Source: Streptomyces sp. NBC_01267 (lineage in GTDB: Bacteria; Actinomycetota; Actinomycetes; Streptomycetales; Streptomycetaceae). Taken from it: a stretch of 64,000 nt of DNA. The stretch spans positions 4,715,501-4,779,500 of the forward strand of contig NZ_CP108455.1 of the NCBI RefSeq assembly GCF_036241575.1. Reading direction: 5' to 3'. Shown here one piece after another: positions 53,543-60,220 of the stretch. The notes under the pieces are model-generated. The model did not search any database. It was not told the origin of the DNA and saw only the letters and a list, made by a program, of their open reading frames with translations. Both the position numbers and the translations under genes were made by a program. The stretch's first letter is position 1, and each line of letters starts with the position of its first letter.

Positions 53543-55087
<1,545 letters not shown>

Positions 55088-55192: not shown

Positions 55193-56317
55193 GTGACTGA
55201 GATCGAGATCGGGCGCGGCAAGCGCGGCCGAAGGGCGTACGCGTTCGACGACATCGCCATCGTGCCGAGCCGGCGCACCCGGGACCCGAAGGAGGTCTCG
55301 ATCGCCTGGCAGATCGACGCCTACCGGTTCGAGCTGCCGTTCCTGGCCGCCCCGATGGACTCGGTCGTGTCACCGCGGACCGCGATCCGGATCGGCGAGA
55401 TGGGCGGCCTCGGCGTACTGAACCTCGAAGGTCTGTGGACGCGGTACGAGGACCCGCAGCCGCTGCTGGACGAGATCGCCGAGCTGGACGAGGAGACGGC
55501 GACCCGGCGTCTGCAGGAGATCTACGCGGCGCCGATCCAGGAGGACCTGATCGGTCTGCGCATCAAGGAGGTGCGCGACTCGGGTGTGGTCACCGCGGCG
55601 GCGCTCTCCCCGCAGCGCACCGCCCAGTTCTCCAAGGCGGTCGTGGACGCGGGCGTCGACATCTTCGTCATCCGCGGTACGACGGTCTCGGCCGAGCACG
55701 TCTCCGGTGCCGCCGAGCCGCTGAACCTGAAGCAGTTCATCTACGAGCTGGACGTCCCGGTCATCGTGGGCGGCTGCGCGACGTACACCGCGGCCCTGCA
55801 CCTGATGCGCACCGGCGCGGCGGGCGTGCTGGTCGGCTTCGGCGGCGGCGCCGCGCACACCACGCGCAACGTGCTGGGCATCCAGGTCCCGATGGCGACC
55901 GCGGTCGCCGATGTGGCCGCGGCCCGCCGCGACTACATGGACGAGTCCGGCGGCCGGTACGTCCACGTCATCGCGGACGGCGGCGTCGGCTGGTCGGGCG
56001 ACCTGCCGAAGGCCATCGCGTGCGGTGCGGACTCGGTGATGATCGGCTCCCCGCTGGCCCGCGCGTCGGACGCGCCGGGCCGGGGCCACCACTGGGGCAT
56101 GGAGGCCGTCCACGAGGACGTGCCGCGCGGCAAGCTGGTGGACCTGGGCATCGTCGGTACGACCGAGGAGATCCTGGCCGGCCCCTCGCACATCCCGGAC
56201 GGTTCGATGAACTTCTTCGGTGCGCTGCGCCGCTCGATGGCGACCACGGGCTACAGCGAGCTGAAGGAATTCCAGCGCGTCGAGGTGACGGTGGCGGACG
56301 CGCAGCACAAGCGCTGA
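55193..56317 (+). CDS. GuaB-family protein with Cys-to-His at the active site
   Basis: 374 residues. A single IMPDH-type barrel without CBS domains. It starts IEIGRGKRGRRAYAFDDIAIVPSRRTRDP and has AAPMDSVVSP, VGFGGGAAHTTRNVLGIQVPMATA and GVGWSGDLPKAIACGADSVMIGSP. In guaB next door the aligned loop reads GSICTTR with the catalytic Cys; here it reads GAAHTTR, so the Cys is His222. This matches the actinobacterial GuaB-related group of unknown role. GTG 55193. Confidence 0.82.
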   Translation: MTEIEIGRGKRGRRAYAFDDIAIVPSRRTRDPKEVSIAWQIDAYRFELPFLAAPMDSVVSPRTAIRIGEMGGLGVLNLEGLWTRYEDPQPLLDEIAELDEETATRRLQEIYAAPIQEDLIGLRIKEVRDSGVVTAAALSPQRTAQFSKAVVDAGVDIFVIRGTTVSAEHVSGAAEPLNLKQFIYELDVPVIVGGCATYTAALHLMRTGAAGVLVGFGGGAAHTTRNVLGIQVPMATAVADVAAARRDYMDESGGRYVHVIADGGVGWSGDLPKAIACGADSVMIGSPLARASDAPGRGHHWGMEAVHEDVPRGKLVDLGIVGTTEEILAGPSHIPDGSMNFFGALRRSMATTGYSELKEFQRVEVTVADAQHKR

Positions 56318-56335
56318 GCCCCTGAGGCGGATCTA

Positions 56336-56381
56336 CACGACGGGGCCCCGTTGCCGGAACCGGCAGCGGGGCCCCGTCGTG
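56336..56381. terminator. 22-bp convergent hairpin
   Basis: Arms 56336-56357 and 56360-56381 are complementary over 22 bases with one G-U pair and a two-base loop. It lies between the converging ends of the guaB-like gene and the following membrane protein gene and probably ends both. Confidence 0.8.
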
Positions 56382-56400
56382 CGTACGGCGGGAGCGGCGG

Positions 56401-56928
56401 TCAGGCGGCTGCCTTCCTGGCACCCGAGAAGGCGGCGATGACGCCGAGGGCCAGGAAGACGAACGACATGAAGTCCAGGCTCTCCTTCCAGGCGCTCGAC
56501 AGCAGGCCGAAATTCTGGAAGAACAGCTCGGACACGGAGACCGGCGCCGACTTGGCGATGATGATGGCCGCGCCGAGCAGTTCGCCGAGGTAGATCGCGA
56601 CGAGTGCGAGGGCCGCGCTGACGAAGGGAAGCACGGGGTTGCGCCCGCCGACCTTGCCCGCGGCGAAGCCGATCACGAAGCCCACGCCGAGCGCGGCATA
56701 GCTCACCTCGCGCTCGATGGCGCCGCCGAGGGCCCCGTAGATCCCTGCGGCGACGAGCGCGACGACCAGCGCGACCACCACACCGCCCGCCAGGTTGTCG
56801 CGCACCGGTGCCGGAGGCGGTGCCATCGGGTAGCCGAAGGCCGACGGCTGTCCGGGCTGGGGCTGTCCGGGCTGCTGGGGTGCGTCGTTCGGGTCCGACG
56901 GGTACGGCGGTGGCACGGGCTGGCTCAT
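56401..56928 (-). CDS. Four-helix membrane protein
   Basis: 175 residues. A Pro/Gln-rich cytosolic head (1-43, QPVPPPYPSDPNDAPQQPGQPQPGQPS-type) is followed by about four membrane helices (from GGVVVALVVALVAAGIYGALG; last at FVFLALGVIAAFSG). No family signature is recognised. ATG 56928 (MSQPVPPPYPS) fits better than the longer ORF to 57012. The 115-base gap to the next gene shows nothing further. Confidence 0.65.
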   Translation of the reverse strand: MSQPVPPPYPSDPNDAPQQPGQPQPGQPSAFGYPMAPPPAPVRDNLAGGVVVALVVALVAAGIYGALGGAIEREVSYAALGVGFVIGFAAGKVGGRNPVLPFVSAALALVAIYLGELLGAAIIIAKSAPVSVSELFFQNFGLLSSAWKESLDFMSFVFLALGVIAAFSGARKAAA

Positions 56929-57043
56929 GGTGGGTCCCCCCTGGGACAGAAGCGCACGACTGTGCGAGAAGCGAACGTCGCACGCTAGCAGTCCCCACCG
57001 ACAATCACCCACGGCATTCCCTCACGGCATTCACCCAGGACCT

Positions 57044-58294
57044 TCACAGCCGGTGGGCGGCTCCCGCCGGGGTGGCTCCCCTGGTGTCCAGCAGGAGCTG
57101 GGCCTTCACGGAGAGGCCCTGGAGGTCGTAGGTGCGGTGCTGCTGGAGCAGAACGGTCAGATCGGCGCCCGCCGCCGCCTCGTACAGCGAGTCGGCACGG
57201 GGCACCGGCACGTCGCGGATGCGCCAGTCGGGGACGTACGGGTCGTGGTAGCTCACCGAGGCGCCGAGGTCCATCAGACGCCGGGCGATCTCTCCCGCGG
57301 GGGAGTTCTCCTGGTCGGCGAGATCGGGCTTGTACGTCACGCCGAGCAGCAGCACGCGGGCGCCGCGCGCCGACTTGCCGTGCTCGTTGAGGAGGGTGGC
57401 GCAGCGCTGGATGACGTACTGCGGCATCCGGTCGTTGACCTGCTGCGCGAGTTCGACCATGCGCAGCGGCCGGACCGTGTGCGGGGGACCGGCGGTGTCC
57501 ACCGGGACGCCGTGGCCGCCGACGCCGGGGCCCGGACGGAAGGCCTGGAAGCCGAAGGGTTTGGTCTCGGCGCAGCGGATGACGTCCCAGAGGTCCACGC
57601 CCAGCTCGTGGCAGAGCACGGCCATCTCGTTGACCAGGGCGATGTTGACGTGCCGGTAGTTCGTTTCGAGGAGTTTGGTCATCTCGGCCTCGCGGGGACC
57701 CCGGGCCCTGACGACCTTGTCGCTCAGTCGGCCGTAGAACGCCGCCGCGGATTCCGTGCAGGCGGGGGTCAGGCCGCCGATGACCTTGGGTGTCGCGGCG
57801 TAGGGGTGGTTGCGGTTGCCGGGGTCGAGGCGGCTGGGGGAGTACGCGAGGTGGAAGTCCCGGCCGGCCCGCAGCCCTGAGCCCTCCTCCAGGAGGGGGC
57901 GCAGGATCTCCTCGGTGGTGCCCGGGTAGACGGCCGATTCGACGATGACCGTGGTGTGCGGGCGCAGCCGTGCGGCGAGCGCACGGGTCGCGTCGGCGAC
58001 CGGGGTCAGATCGAGCGCCCGGTCCTCGCCGAGCGGGGTGGGCGCGCAGATGACGGCGGTACGCACCCGGCCCAGTTCGGCCGGATCGGTGACGGGCCGG
58101 AAGCCCCCCGAGAGCATCCGGCGGATGTCGGCCGCGCTGAGGGAGCCGTCGACGGGGGTGTGACCGGCGGCGAGTTGGAGGAGTCGGCGTGGGTCGGTGT
58201 CGTATCCGATCGTTTCGAGGCCGGTGGCGACTGCGGCCTGGGCGAGCGGCAGGCCGAGGTGACCGAGTCCGATGACGGCGAGATCTGCGGGCAT
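57044..58294 (-). CDS. Nucleotide-sugar dehydrogenase homologue lacking catalytic Cys and Glu
   Basis: 416 residues of the UDP-glucose/UDP-ManNAc dehydrogenase type. The NAD domain starts LAVIGLGHLGLPLAQAAV, YPGTTEE and the Lys of EMTKLLETNYRHVNIALVNE are kept. The SPERxDPG motif reads SPSRLDPG (Glu to Ser, residue 154) and the Cys motif GGHCIPVDP reads GGHGVPVDT (Cys to Gly, residue 262). The two-step oxidation should therefore be impaired. The C-terminal Rossmann domain is complete (LLGVTYKPDLADQENSPAGEI). It could be inactive, regulatory or an altered enzyme. Confidence 0.8.
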   Translation of the reverse strand: MPADLAVIGLGHLGLPLAQAAVATGLETIGYDTDPRRLLQLAAGHTPVDGSLSAADIRRMLSGGFRPVTDPAELGRVRTAVICAPTPLGEDRALDLTPVADATRALAARLRPHTTVIVESAVYPGTTEEILRPLLEEGSGLRAGRDFHLAYSPSRLDPGNRNHPYAATPKVIGGLTPACTESAAAFYGRLSDKVVRARGPREAEMTKLLETNYRHVNIALVNEMAVLCHELGVDLWDVIRCAETKPFGFQAFRPGPGVGGHGVPVDTAGPPHTVRPLRMVELAQQVNDRMPQYVIQRCATLLNEHGKSARGARVLLLGVTYKPDLADQENSPAGEIARRLMDLGASVSYHDPYVPDWRIRDVPVPRADSLYEAAAGADLTVLLQQHRTYDLQGLSVKAQLLLDTRGATPAGAAHRL

Positions 58295-58417
58295 GGGGTG
58301 ATCCGCTTCCCAATAGCCGGAGGGGGACGAGAGCGCAAGTCCTGTGGACCATGCAATGTCAGGTTAGGAGTAAATATGACCGATTTGCGGTATTGGGCGG
58401 GTCCGGGTGTCCGTGTG

Positions 58418-58426
58418 TTGTCCACA
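58418..58426 (+). other. DnaA box-like sequence
   Basis: TTGTCCACA lies in the divergent gap before glpD. The second single copy in this window; no cluster is present. Confidence 0.5.
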
Positions 58427-58510
58427 GGCGGTGGCTGAAGTCGGCGAGGGCGGACAGAATCGGTGGTGTGCCGGACACCGTTCTGGCGGCCTGATCAACG
58501 GGAGGCAGCA

Positions 58511-60220
58511 GTGAGGACAGCGACACTGGGGCCCGAGGAGCGCACGGCAGCGCTCGCCGGGATGGCCGAGCGTGAACTGGATGTACTGGTCGTAGGGGCC
58601 GGTGTGGTCGGTGCGGGGACGGCGCTGGACGCCGCGACGCGCGGGCTCGCGACCGGTCTCGTCGAGGCGAGGGACTGGGCTTCGGGCACATCGAGCCGGT
58701 CGAGCAAGCTCATCCACGGCGGCTTGCGCTATCTGGAGATGCTCGACTTCACGCTCGTACGGGAGGCCCTGAAGGAGCGCGGGCTGCTCCTGGAGCGCCT
58801 GGCGCCCCATCTGGTGAAGCCGGTGCCGTTTCTCTATCCCTTGCAGCACAAGGGCTGGGAACGCTGGTACGCGGGCTCGGGCGTCGCGTTGTACGACGCG
58901 ATGTCGGTCTCGTCGGGACACGGCCGCGGACTGCCGCTGCACCGGCACCTGACGCGCAAGCACGCGCTGCGGGTGGCGCCGGCGCTGAAGAAGGACGCGC
59001 TGGTCGGGGCGTTGCAGTACTACGACGCGCAGATGGACGACGCGCGCTATGTGACGACGCTGGTGCGGACGGCCGCGAGCTACGGCGCACTGGCCGCGAA
59101 CCGCGCCCGGGTCATCGGCTTCCTGCGGGAGGGCGAACGGGTCGTCGGCGCGCGGGTGGAGGACGTCGAGACCGGTACCGAGTACGAGATCCGTGCCAAG
59201 CAGGTCGTCAACGCCACCGGGGTGTGGACGGACGACACCCAGGCGCTGATCGGCGAGCGCGGACAGTTCCATGTGCGGGCCTCGAAAGGCATCCATCTGG
59301 TCGTACCGAAGGACCGGATTCATTCCTCCACCGGGCTCATCCTGCGGACCGAGAAGTCGGTGCTGTTCGTGATCCCGTGGGGACGCCACTGGATCGTCGG
59401 GACCACGGACACCGACTGGGACCTGGACAAGGCGCACCCGGCCGCGTCCAGCGCCGACATCGACTACCTCCTCGAACACGTCAACTCGGTGCTTGCGACG
59501 CCCCTGACCAGGGACGACGTCCAGGGCGTGTACGCGGGCCTGCGGCCGTTGCTGGCCGGGGAGTCCGATGCGACCAGCAAGCTCTCGCGGGAGCACACGG
59601 TGGCGCATCCGGTGCCGGGCCTGGTGGTCGTCGCCGGCGGCAAGTACACGACGTACCGCGTGATGGCGAAGGACGCGGTGGACGAGGCGGTGCACGGGCT
59701 GGACCAGCGGGTCGCCGAGTGCGTCACGGAGAACGTGCCGCTGATCGGAGCAGAGGGCTACAACGCCCTGTGGAACGCGCGGGCGCGGATCGCCGCGCGC
59801 ACCGGTCTGCACGTGGCCCGGGTCGAGCACCTGTTGAACCGCTTCGGCTCGATGACCCAGGAGCTGCTCGACCTGATCGTGGCGGACCCCTCGCTGGGCG
59901 AGCCGCTGGGCAGCGCGGACGACTATCTGCGGGCCGAGGTCGTCTATGCCGCTTCGCACGAAGGGGCCAGGCATCTGGACGACGTGCTGACCCGGCGTAC
60001 ACGCATCTCGATCGAGACCTTCGACCGGGGGACGCGCAGCGCGCGGGAGGCCGCCGAGTTGATGGCGAAGGTGCTCGGCTGGGACAAGGGCCGGACGGAG
60101 AAGGAGATCGCGCACTACGAGAAGCGGGTGGAGGCGGAGCGGGAGTCGCAGCGGCAGCCGGACGACCTGACGGCGGACGCGGCGCGGCTCGGGGCGCCGG
60201 ACATATTGCCGCTGGGGTGA
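58511..60220 (+). CDS. glpD: Glycerol-3-phosphate dehydrogenase
   Basis: GlpD, 569 residues, an FAD enzyme oxidising glycerol-3-phosphate to dihydroxyacetone phosphate at the membrane. FAD motif DVLVVGAGVVGAGTALDAATRG; SGTSSRSSKLIHGGLRYLE; HLVKPVPFLYP; the C-terminal GRTEKEIAHYEK and long helices. GTG 58511 has GGGAGG at 58499-58504, better than the ORF start at 58463. The upstream gap holds a DnaA box and CAGAAT (58455-58460) as a possible -10. Confidence 0.94.
   Translation: MRTATLGPEERTAALAGMAERELDVLVVGAGVVGAGTALDAATRGLATGLVEARDWASGTSSRSSKLIHGGLRYLEMLDFTLVREALKERGLLLERLAPHLVKPVPFLYPLQHKGWERWYAGSGVALYDAMSVSSGHGRGLPLHRHLTRKHALRVAPALKKDALVGALQYYDAQMDDARYVTTLVRTAASYGALAANRARVIGFLREGERVVGARVEDVETGTEYEIRAKQVVNATGVWTDDTQALIGERGQFHVRASKGIHLVVPKDRIHSSTGLILRTEKSVLFVIPWGRHWIVGTTDTDWDLDKAHPAASSADIDYLLEHVNSVLATPLTRDDVQGVYAGLRPLLAGESDATSKLSREHTVAHPVPGLVVVAGGKYTTYRVMAKDAVDEAVHGLDQRVAECVTENVPLIGAEGYNALWNARARIAARTGLHVARVEHLLNRFGSMTQELLDLIVADPSLGEPLGSADDYLRAEVVYAASHEGARHLDDVLTRRTRISIETFDRGTRSAREAAELMAKVLGWDKGRTEKEIAHYEKRVEAERESQRQPDDLTADAARLGAPDILPLG

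Follow-up and report, generated by a model that had tools for sequence, protein, structure and literature searches.

The closest described relatives of the protein treated here are the UDP-ManNAc-type dehydrogenases (family model TIGR03026), among them Cap5O of S. aureus and the P. horikoshii enzyme (4r16). PMC4794789 assigns roles to 18 residues that are invariant among 229 family members, and it reports that the P. horikoshii counterpart of Arg211 of the S. aureus UDP-ManNAc dehydrogenase binds the alpha-phosphate; by our reading of the alignment this Arg211 corresponds to Arg214 of the protein described below. Canonical actinobacterial paralogues (L068-L080, P0225-P0344, and L002 and L003 from the same genome) show about 43-59% identity to our protein and share its family model.

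The window, by which we mean the whole stretch of 64,000 nucleotides that was analysed, carries a member of this family between a guaB-like and a glpD-like gene. The features of the locus are given below, with matches counted over 80 named Streptomyces loci (L082-L161).

57044..58294, reverse strand: NDP-sugar dehydrogenase-like putative pseudoenzyme, 416 aa, three-domain fold
58463..60220, forward strand: glpD-like gene, divergent neighbour, coordinates of the ORF as listed (match in 80/80 loci)
55193..56317, forward strand: guaB-like gene (IMP dehydrogenase family), convergent neighbour (match in 77/80 loci)
56401..56928, reverse strand: small Pro-rich membrane protein, encoded downstream of the pseudoenzyme gene and in the same orientation (match in 59/80 loci)
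58370..58381, reverse strand: core GGTCATATTTAC of a conserved noncoding block in the interval between the gene and glpD, putative promoter or operator

The first of these reading frames starts with ATG and is intact; we refer to its product as the query. In a profile search it matches TIGR03026 with 352.1 bits over residues 4-405 (cut-off 189.8), and all three Pfam UDPG_MGDP_dh domains score over their cut-off. Judged by these profiles, membership of the NDP-sugar dehydrogenase superfamily by descent is certain, and the three-domain fold is intact. In the AlphaFold2 model, confidence is lowest precisely at the pocket, with pLDDT below 50 at residues 245-251, 256-258 and 269-277.

We compared the query with its relatives in an alignment assembled from three homologue searches (best 120 of each) and the proteins of fetched loci; the set went from 342 sequences to 318 without identical ones, and to 534 with later homologue searches. 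FastTree groups 370 of the 534 sequences with the query as a single clade (support 0.906), which leaves 164 others. The clade is defined by this tree, as a split at 59.5% identity would count the canonical paralogues L069 and L164 as altered. Its members carry the public names nucleotide sugar dehydrogenase or UDP-N-acetyl-D-glucosamine dehydrogenase. Catalytic and cofactor positions were mapped by alignment, and the family residues below follow the S. pyogenes UDPGDH numbering.

57509..57511, reverse strand: Gly262 codon (plus strand gcc, minus strand GGC), family catalytic Cys (Cys260)
57833..57835, reverse strand: Ser154 codon (plus strand gct, minus strand AGC), family Glu (Glu141)
57662..57664, reverse strand: Thr211 codon, family Asn (Asn208); Asn in 7/370 of the clade and 164/164 others
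57932..57934, reverse strand: Ala121 codon, family Thr (Thr118); Thr in 51/370 of the clade and 164/164 others
58259..58261, reverse strand: His12 codon, family Tyr (Tyr10, thioester hydrolysis); Tyr in 3/370 of the clade and 161/162 others
57308..57310, reverse strand: Glu329 codon, family Arg (Arg327, NAD-pyrophosphate salt bridge); Arg in 4/369 of the clade and 164/164 others
57674..57676, reverse strand: Lys207 codon (Lys204), kept in the query; lost in 72/370 clade members
57497..57499, reverse strand: Asp266 codon (Asp264, general base), kept in the query; Asp in 363/368 of the clade
57329..57331, reverse strand: Lys322 codon (Lys320, UDP diphosphate contact), kept in the query; Lys in 361/368 of the clade

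Six catalytic or cofactor positions are thus altered together in the query, namely the equivalents of Cys260, Glu141, Thr118, Asn208, Tyr10 and Arg327. The initial annotation of this gene had reported Gly in place of the family Cys (GGHGVPVDT, residues 259-267) and Ser in place of the family Glu (SPSRLDPG, residues 152-159), both of which we confirm at residues 262 and 154 of an intact frame, together with the retained Lys207. It had overlooked the four further changes, Ala121, Thr211, His12 (within the NAD motif) and Glu329. Its statement that the NAD motif is kept holds for the GxGxxG glycines, but the Tyr10 equivalent is His and the NAD-pyrophosphate Arg327 has become Glu. Its conclusion that the normal four-electron oxidation should be impossible agrees with our finding that the query lacks the Cys, the Glu, the Asn and the Thr alike; we regard it as very probable that the protein is not a normal four-electron dehydrogenase.

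The loss is a property of the whole clade. Cys and Glu occur together in none of the 370 clade members, whereas Glu, Lys, Asn and Cys are all kept in 163 of the 164 sequences outside it. The exception, L079 (from G099, 54% identity), keeps Cys, Lys and Asn, has Gln for Glu, and has changes at two further invariant Asn; it is possibly an independent onset of the same kind of loss. Glu is found at position 154 in one of 370 clade members versus 163 of 164 others, and position 262 is occupied in the clade by Gly (265), Ala (63), Ser (26), Cys (7), Asp (6) or Thr (3) versus Cys in 164/164 others; no one replacement is fixed at either position. The protein L084 from Streptomyces sp. NBC_01669 has Cys at 262, yet Ser at 154 and Thr at 211, and from this Cys we conclude that the column drifts and is not fixed. 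Among the best 120 database proteins listed, the window's own included, Gly stands at 262 in 120/120 and Glu at 154 in none; the 80 named loci have Cys262 in 1/80, Glu154 in 0/80, Lys207 in 56/80 and internal stops in 0/80. The suggestion in the initial annotation that the substitution is old and not an error is therefore borne out by the same sites being altered across the clade and intact in nearly all other sequences. The observation that it named as counter-evidence, orthologues at this locus with Cys and Glu retained, was looked for and did not turn up. A private loss in a single lineage is ruled out by the same clade-wide pattern.

What the clade has kept is as distinct as what it has lost. 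Counting seven pocket positions with published roles, clade members retain none (66 sequences), one (253), two (43), three (3), four (2) or five (3). By the 18 invariants of PMC4794789, which do not include Tyr10 and Arg327, 161 of the 164 non-clade sequences keep 18/18; the other three keep 15, two of them starting after the N-terminal glycines and the third being L079 with its three changes. On the same list, clade members keep 14 (227 sequences), 13 (96), 15 (27), 12 (11), 17 (4), 11 (3) or 16 (2). The contacts on the UDP side are nearly invariant in the clade (R155 in 368/370, R214 in 369/370, G259 in 369/370, K322 in 361/368), and Pro140, Glu201, Asn219, Gly257, Gly258 and Asn287 are each kept in 369 or 370 of 370. 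On the NAD side the three GxGxxG glycines are mostly present (368, 346 and 369 of 370), but this half of the pocket has decayed at the Tyr10, Thr118 and Arg327 positions and also at D29 (kept in 334/370) and T83 (342/370). In the Lys204 column, Gln is found in 43/370 and some other residue in 29, and the Lys204 and Asp264 equivalents are jointly kept in 293/370. The clade is one that has lost the chemistry (Glu141, Cys260, Asn208, Thr118, Tyr10, Arg327) and retained the structure and the UDP side.

Purifying selection has preserved the fold and most of the sequence. From synonymous and nonsynonymous counts over the 80 loci (3146 non-independent pairs for the pseudoenzyme gene), the median dN/dS is 0.232 for the pseudoenzyme gene, about twice that of glpD (0.103) and the guaB-like gene (0.106), and 0.11 for a sigma factor; at the same loci guaB, which occurs in two types, has 0.246 and the small membrane protein 0.655 (39 sequences). 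It is in this sense, a clade-wide loss of catalytic residues in a fold under selection, that we speak of a pseudoenzyme. Site entropy, calculated from weighted sequences (effective numbers 38.7 for the clade and 45.2 for the others, L004 excluded), averages 0.87 in the clade versus 1.25 in the others, in part because the clade is the shallower sample and the 164 others extend to proteins just 43-59% identical to the query. The direction is reversed in the Cys loop (257-272; 1.07 in the clade versus 0.33), near the active-site Thr (113-128; 0.71 versus 0.42), near the Glu (145-160; 0.73 versus 0.54) and in 209-224 (0.52 versus 0.31), and in 33-48, 81-96 and 321-336 the clade lies slightly above the others. 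The central domain is well conserved. The Cys-loop stretch 262-277 varies between 8 and 30 residues in the clade and between 18 and 22 in the others; the control segment 178-219 is near-constant (41-42 residues versus 42, with one of 46). At 41 positions the residue is shared by at least 97% of the clade and by less than 70% of the other sequences; many are Arg (58, 59, 78, 189, 196, 240, 253, 310, 339), to which Glu243 is added, and end gaps in the non-clade rows account in part for those at residues 3-5 and 409-416.

The order in which residues were lost can be followed on a 77-row maximum-likelihood tree calculated without the catalytic columns, with rows picked by similarity and at least 90% coverage. 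The clade forms one side of a branch with support 100/100. Within it, nine sequences with partial loss (99/92) are sister to the remaining 38 (100/98), a split that was also present in the earlier tree. Two Wenjunlia species are among the nine (P0121 and P0124, the same sequences as L201 and L200); Glu is replaced by Thr in 9/9, Cys is kept in six and Asn in five, and four of them keep 17 of the 18 published family invariants. The fewest changes needed on this tree are three for Glu, five each for Cys and Asn, eight for Lys and nine for Thr. The simplest reading is that Glu was lost first, then Cys and Asn, with Lys lost or changed several times. Five changes in the Cys column imply either repeated loss or a regain, as in L084; the direction of loss follows from rooting the tree on the non-clade sequences.

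A match at E <= 1e-130 was found in 121 of 121 genus genomes (own included), with no internal stops among the matches listed; two of these matches are fragments at the end of a contig, and an N run breaks up a third. The last had seemed a truncated orthologue, and we rejected it as a case of gene loss since the interruption lies in the stored data. A second family copy at E <= 1e-130 is present in 19/121 genus genomes, and canonical paralogues are sporadic. Of 16 other genera covered by a family-wide search, 8 yielded orthologues with at least 68% identity; in G201, of a genus having the gene, just a canonical paralogue at 58% identity was found. Beyond the family, the best match among 15 genomes from the same order has 52% identity.

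The glpD-like gene adjoins the pseudoenzyme gene in all 80 named loci, its match ending 169-405 bp from the start of the pseudoenzyme gene; in the window the glpD-like frame probably begins at the GTG near 58511. The guaB-like gene lies on the opposite side in 77/80, 64 bp to 3.9 kb away, the contigs of the other three ending first. The pseudoenzyme gene also adjoins the guaB-like gene in G128 from Wenjunlia, where glpD flanks its opposite end, and in G131 from another genus. These are the two with the gene among 18 genomes inspected at the guaB-like gene; 16 are without it. In 11 of these 16 relatives the guaB-like gene is followed by glpD (at 67-277 bp in nine, and about 660 and 1,150 bp in two), which makes an insertion of the gene between the two likely. 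In the other five, neither glpD nor the pseudoenzyme gene was found within 1.5 kb of the guaB-like gene, and perhaps some genera later lost the guaB-like-glpD stretch. The small membrane protein, which evolves fast and is also matched at the locus in two genomes without the pseudoenzyme (L226, L229), is not clearly part of the same system. Farther along, guaB itself (IMP dehydrogenase, window 53585-55087) occurs in two types at this place across the 80 named loci: compared with the window's copy, 38 of 76 loci have 84-86% identity and 36 above 91%, and the types are separated by 28 near-fixed differences, the majority lying close to residues 30-36, 233-268 and 442-467. Allele replacement by recombination would be our guess.

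Upstream of the gene, window positions 58295-58510 correspond to a noncoding interval that is conserved across the 80 named loci. The core GGTCATATTTAC is found at up to two mismatches in 78/80 of them, and the 27-mer around it matches the genome once when up to three mismatches are allowed. An exact TTGTCCACA, which we take to be the DnaA-box consensus, occurs within 260 bp upstream of the gene in 64/80 loci, and exact sites for it number merely 68 across all 1.31 Mb of the 80 loci. The exact motifs were not found in L203, L204 or the 18 guaB-like loci, which span only part of the interval. A search of the block against Rfam gave no match at E <= 1. A sigma-70 scan of 56300-58600 gave no promoter-like site, and for this reason we treat a promoter role for the block as putative.

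Several explanations of the altered pocket have to be weighed. That Gly262 is an assembly or sequencing error has a vanishingly small probability: a change from Cys to Gly can be one base, but Gly is found at this position in all of the best 120 proteins listed (the window's own included), and five further catalytic or cofactor positions are altered in the same protein; the orthologues refute it. A gene in slow decay, its function gone, would explain why dN/dS exceeds that of glpD and the guaB-like gene, and partial decay fits the most divergent orthologues (L062-L065, 62-70% identity), in which further core residues, including K322 or R155, have changed, suggesting relaxed constraint in some lineages. 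We nevertheless consider decay very unlikely, as a stop-free match is present in 121/121 genus genomes among the matches listed and in 80/80 loci, the upstream block is conserved in 78/80, and dN/dS stays well under 1 and does not exceed the value for guaB in these loci.

Two further explanations leave the protein a role close to the family enzymes. The initial annotation had proposed that the enzyme might stop at the aldehyde or epimerise its substrate, that is, oxidise and re-reduce it, and the retained Lys207 and Asp266 could serve such an altered yet active redox enzyme. Because the equivalents of both are kept in 293/370, the first half-reaction is possible, and NAD may still bind because the Rossmann glycines are mostly kept; moreover, the human C276A mutant, unable to complete the reaction from UDP-glucose, is reported to oxidise the aldehyde intermediate (PMC3184952). 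Against this, the Tyr10, Asn208 and Arg327 equivalents are gone in nearly all clade members and Thr118 in 319/370, Lys204 is lost in 72, and the catalytic loop ranges from 8 to 30 residues. A new chemistry would also be likely to fix pocket residues of its own, and neither 154 nor 262 has settled on one replacement. We therefore find an active enzyme improbable. The other possibility, a dead subunit that pairs with and tunes an active nucleotide-sugar dehydrogenase, has a precedent in a dead paralogue that activates an enzyme (PMC6221367). It would agree with the intact fold and the conserved central domain, with the at least two TIGR03026 matches (E <= 1e-30) found in 61/61 genus genomes, one of which is presumably this gene, and with two closer canonical paralogues, L002 and L003, at 44-45% identity in the query's own genome. 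However, no other match at E <= 1e-90 was found in 13 of 21 same-genus genomes, so that pairing with a close active paralogue is not general and the obligate co-occurrence expected of a prozyme is not observed; 4 of the 61 genomes have just two family matches among the matches listed; and L004, the fourth and most distant family match in the own genome (28% identity), would be ill suited to forming mixed dimers. These counts weaken the idea that the protein generally pairs with a close active paralogue, a more distant family member could still be the partner, and overall we consider a dead subunit of this kind unlikely. The role of regulator or binding partner, which the initial annotation also offered, is left standing.

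The explanation that we favour is that an NDP-sugar dehydrogenase gene became lodged between glpD and the guaB-like gene in an ancestor of Streptomyces and several sister genera, and that the inserted dehydrogenase turned into a pseudoenzyme as its catalytic residues were lost step by step. It would still bind a nucleotide sugar without oxidising it, and may act as a ligand-responsive binding or regulatory protein through clade-fixed residues such as R58, R59, R78, R189, R196, R240 and E243. The near-invariant UDP-side contacts point to nucleotide-sugar binding, which we consider probable, and the decay of the Cys loop and of the NAD and catalytic half of the pocket argues against sugar oxidation. 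A job other than the family chemistry is probable, because the catalytic residues were lost while the rest remained under selection. That this job is that of a non-catalytic regulator or scaffold, the step we hold least firmly, seems to us slightly favoured, and for the combined statement, that the pseudoenzyme binds a nucleotide sugar and works as a binding or regulatory protein, sequence comparison leaves the balance even. More tentatively still, the protein could be a genus-wide UDP-sugar sensor that reports on its ligand through the clade-only residues without consuming it, with the Wenjunlia partial-loss clade as a surviving intermediate between enzyme and sensor. The ligand might then be a cell-wall precursor whose status is reported to a partner in Streptomyces growth or development; we consider this sensor possible but doubtful.

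The gene has a match in all 121 sampled genus genomes, and the dehydrogenase name it carries is very probably a misnomer; metabolic models built on that name would contain a nonexistent reaction. The clade also offers a rare graded series, from 17 down to 11 of the 18 family-invariant residues, so that the sequence of steps by which an enzyme gives up catalysis can be tested directly. Text searches of the open-access literature, where most subscription papers are missing, found no description of this protein or of the family as inactive. SCO4772-4774 is, we assume, the numbering for this locus; one paper lists SCO4772 as a transposase.

In its history the clade resembles the T. brucei AdoMetDC prozyme, which according to PMC6221367 is likewise a dead paralogue under selection; unlike for that prozyme, a close active relative is missing here from 13 of 21 genomes. 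The UDP-ManNAc-type dehydrogenases Cap5O and 4r16 differ more plainly: the query is without their catalytic Cys, Glu and Asn, the equivalents of Thr118, Tyr10 and Arg327 are lost, and the catalytic loop is of variable length in the clade. The canonical non-clade group, unlike the pseudoenzyme clade, retains the residues of the family reaction. Human Glu161 and Thr131 presumably map to two of the sites altered in the query. The human UDP-glucose dehydrogenase mutants Glu161Gln (3khu) and Thr131Ala (3itk) would thus carry changes at sites that are altered naturally here; these are engineered single changes in an enzyme that is otherwise active, whereas in the query six positions have changed together.
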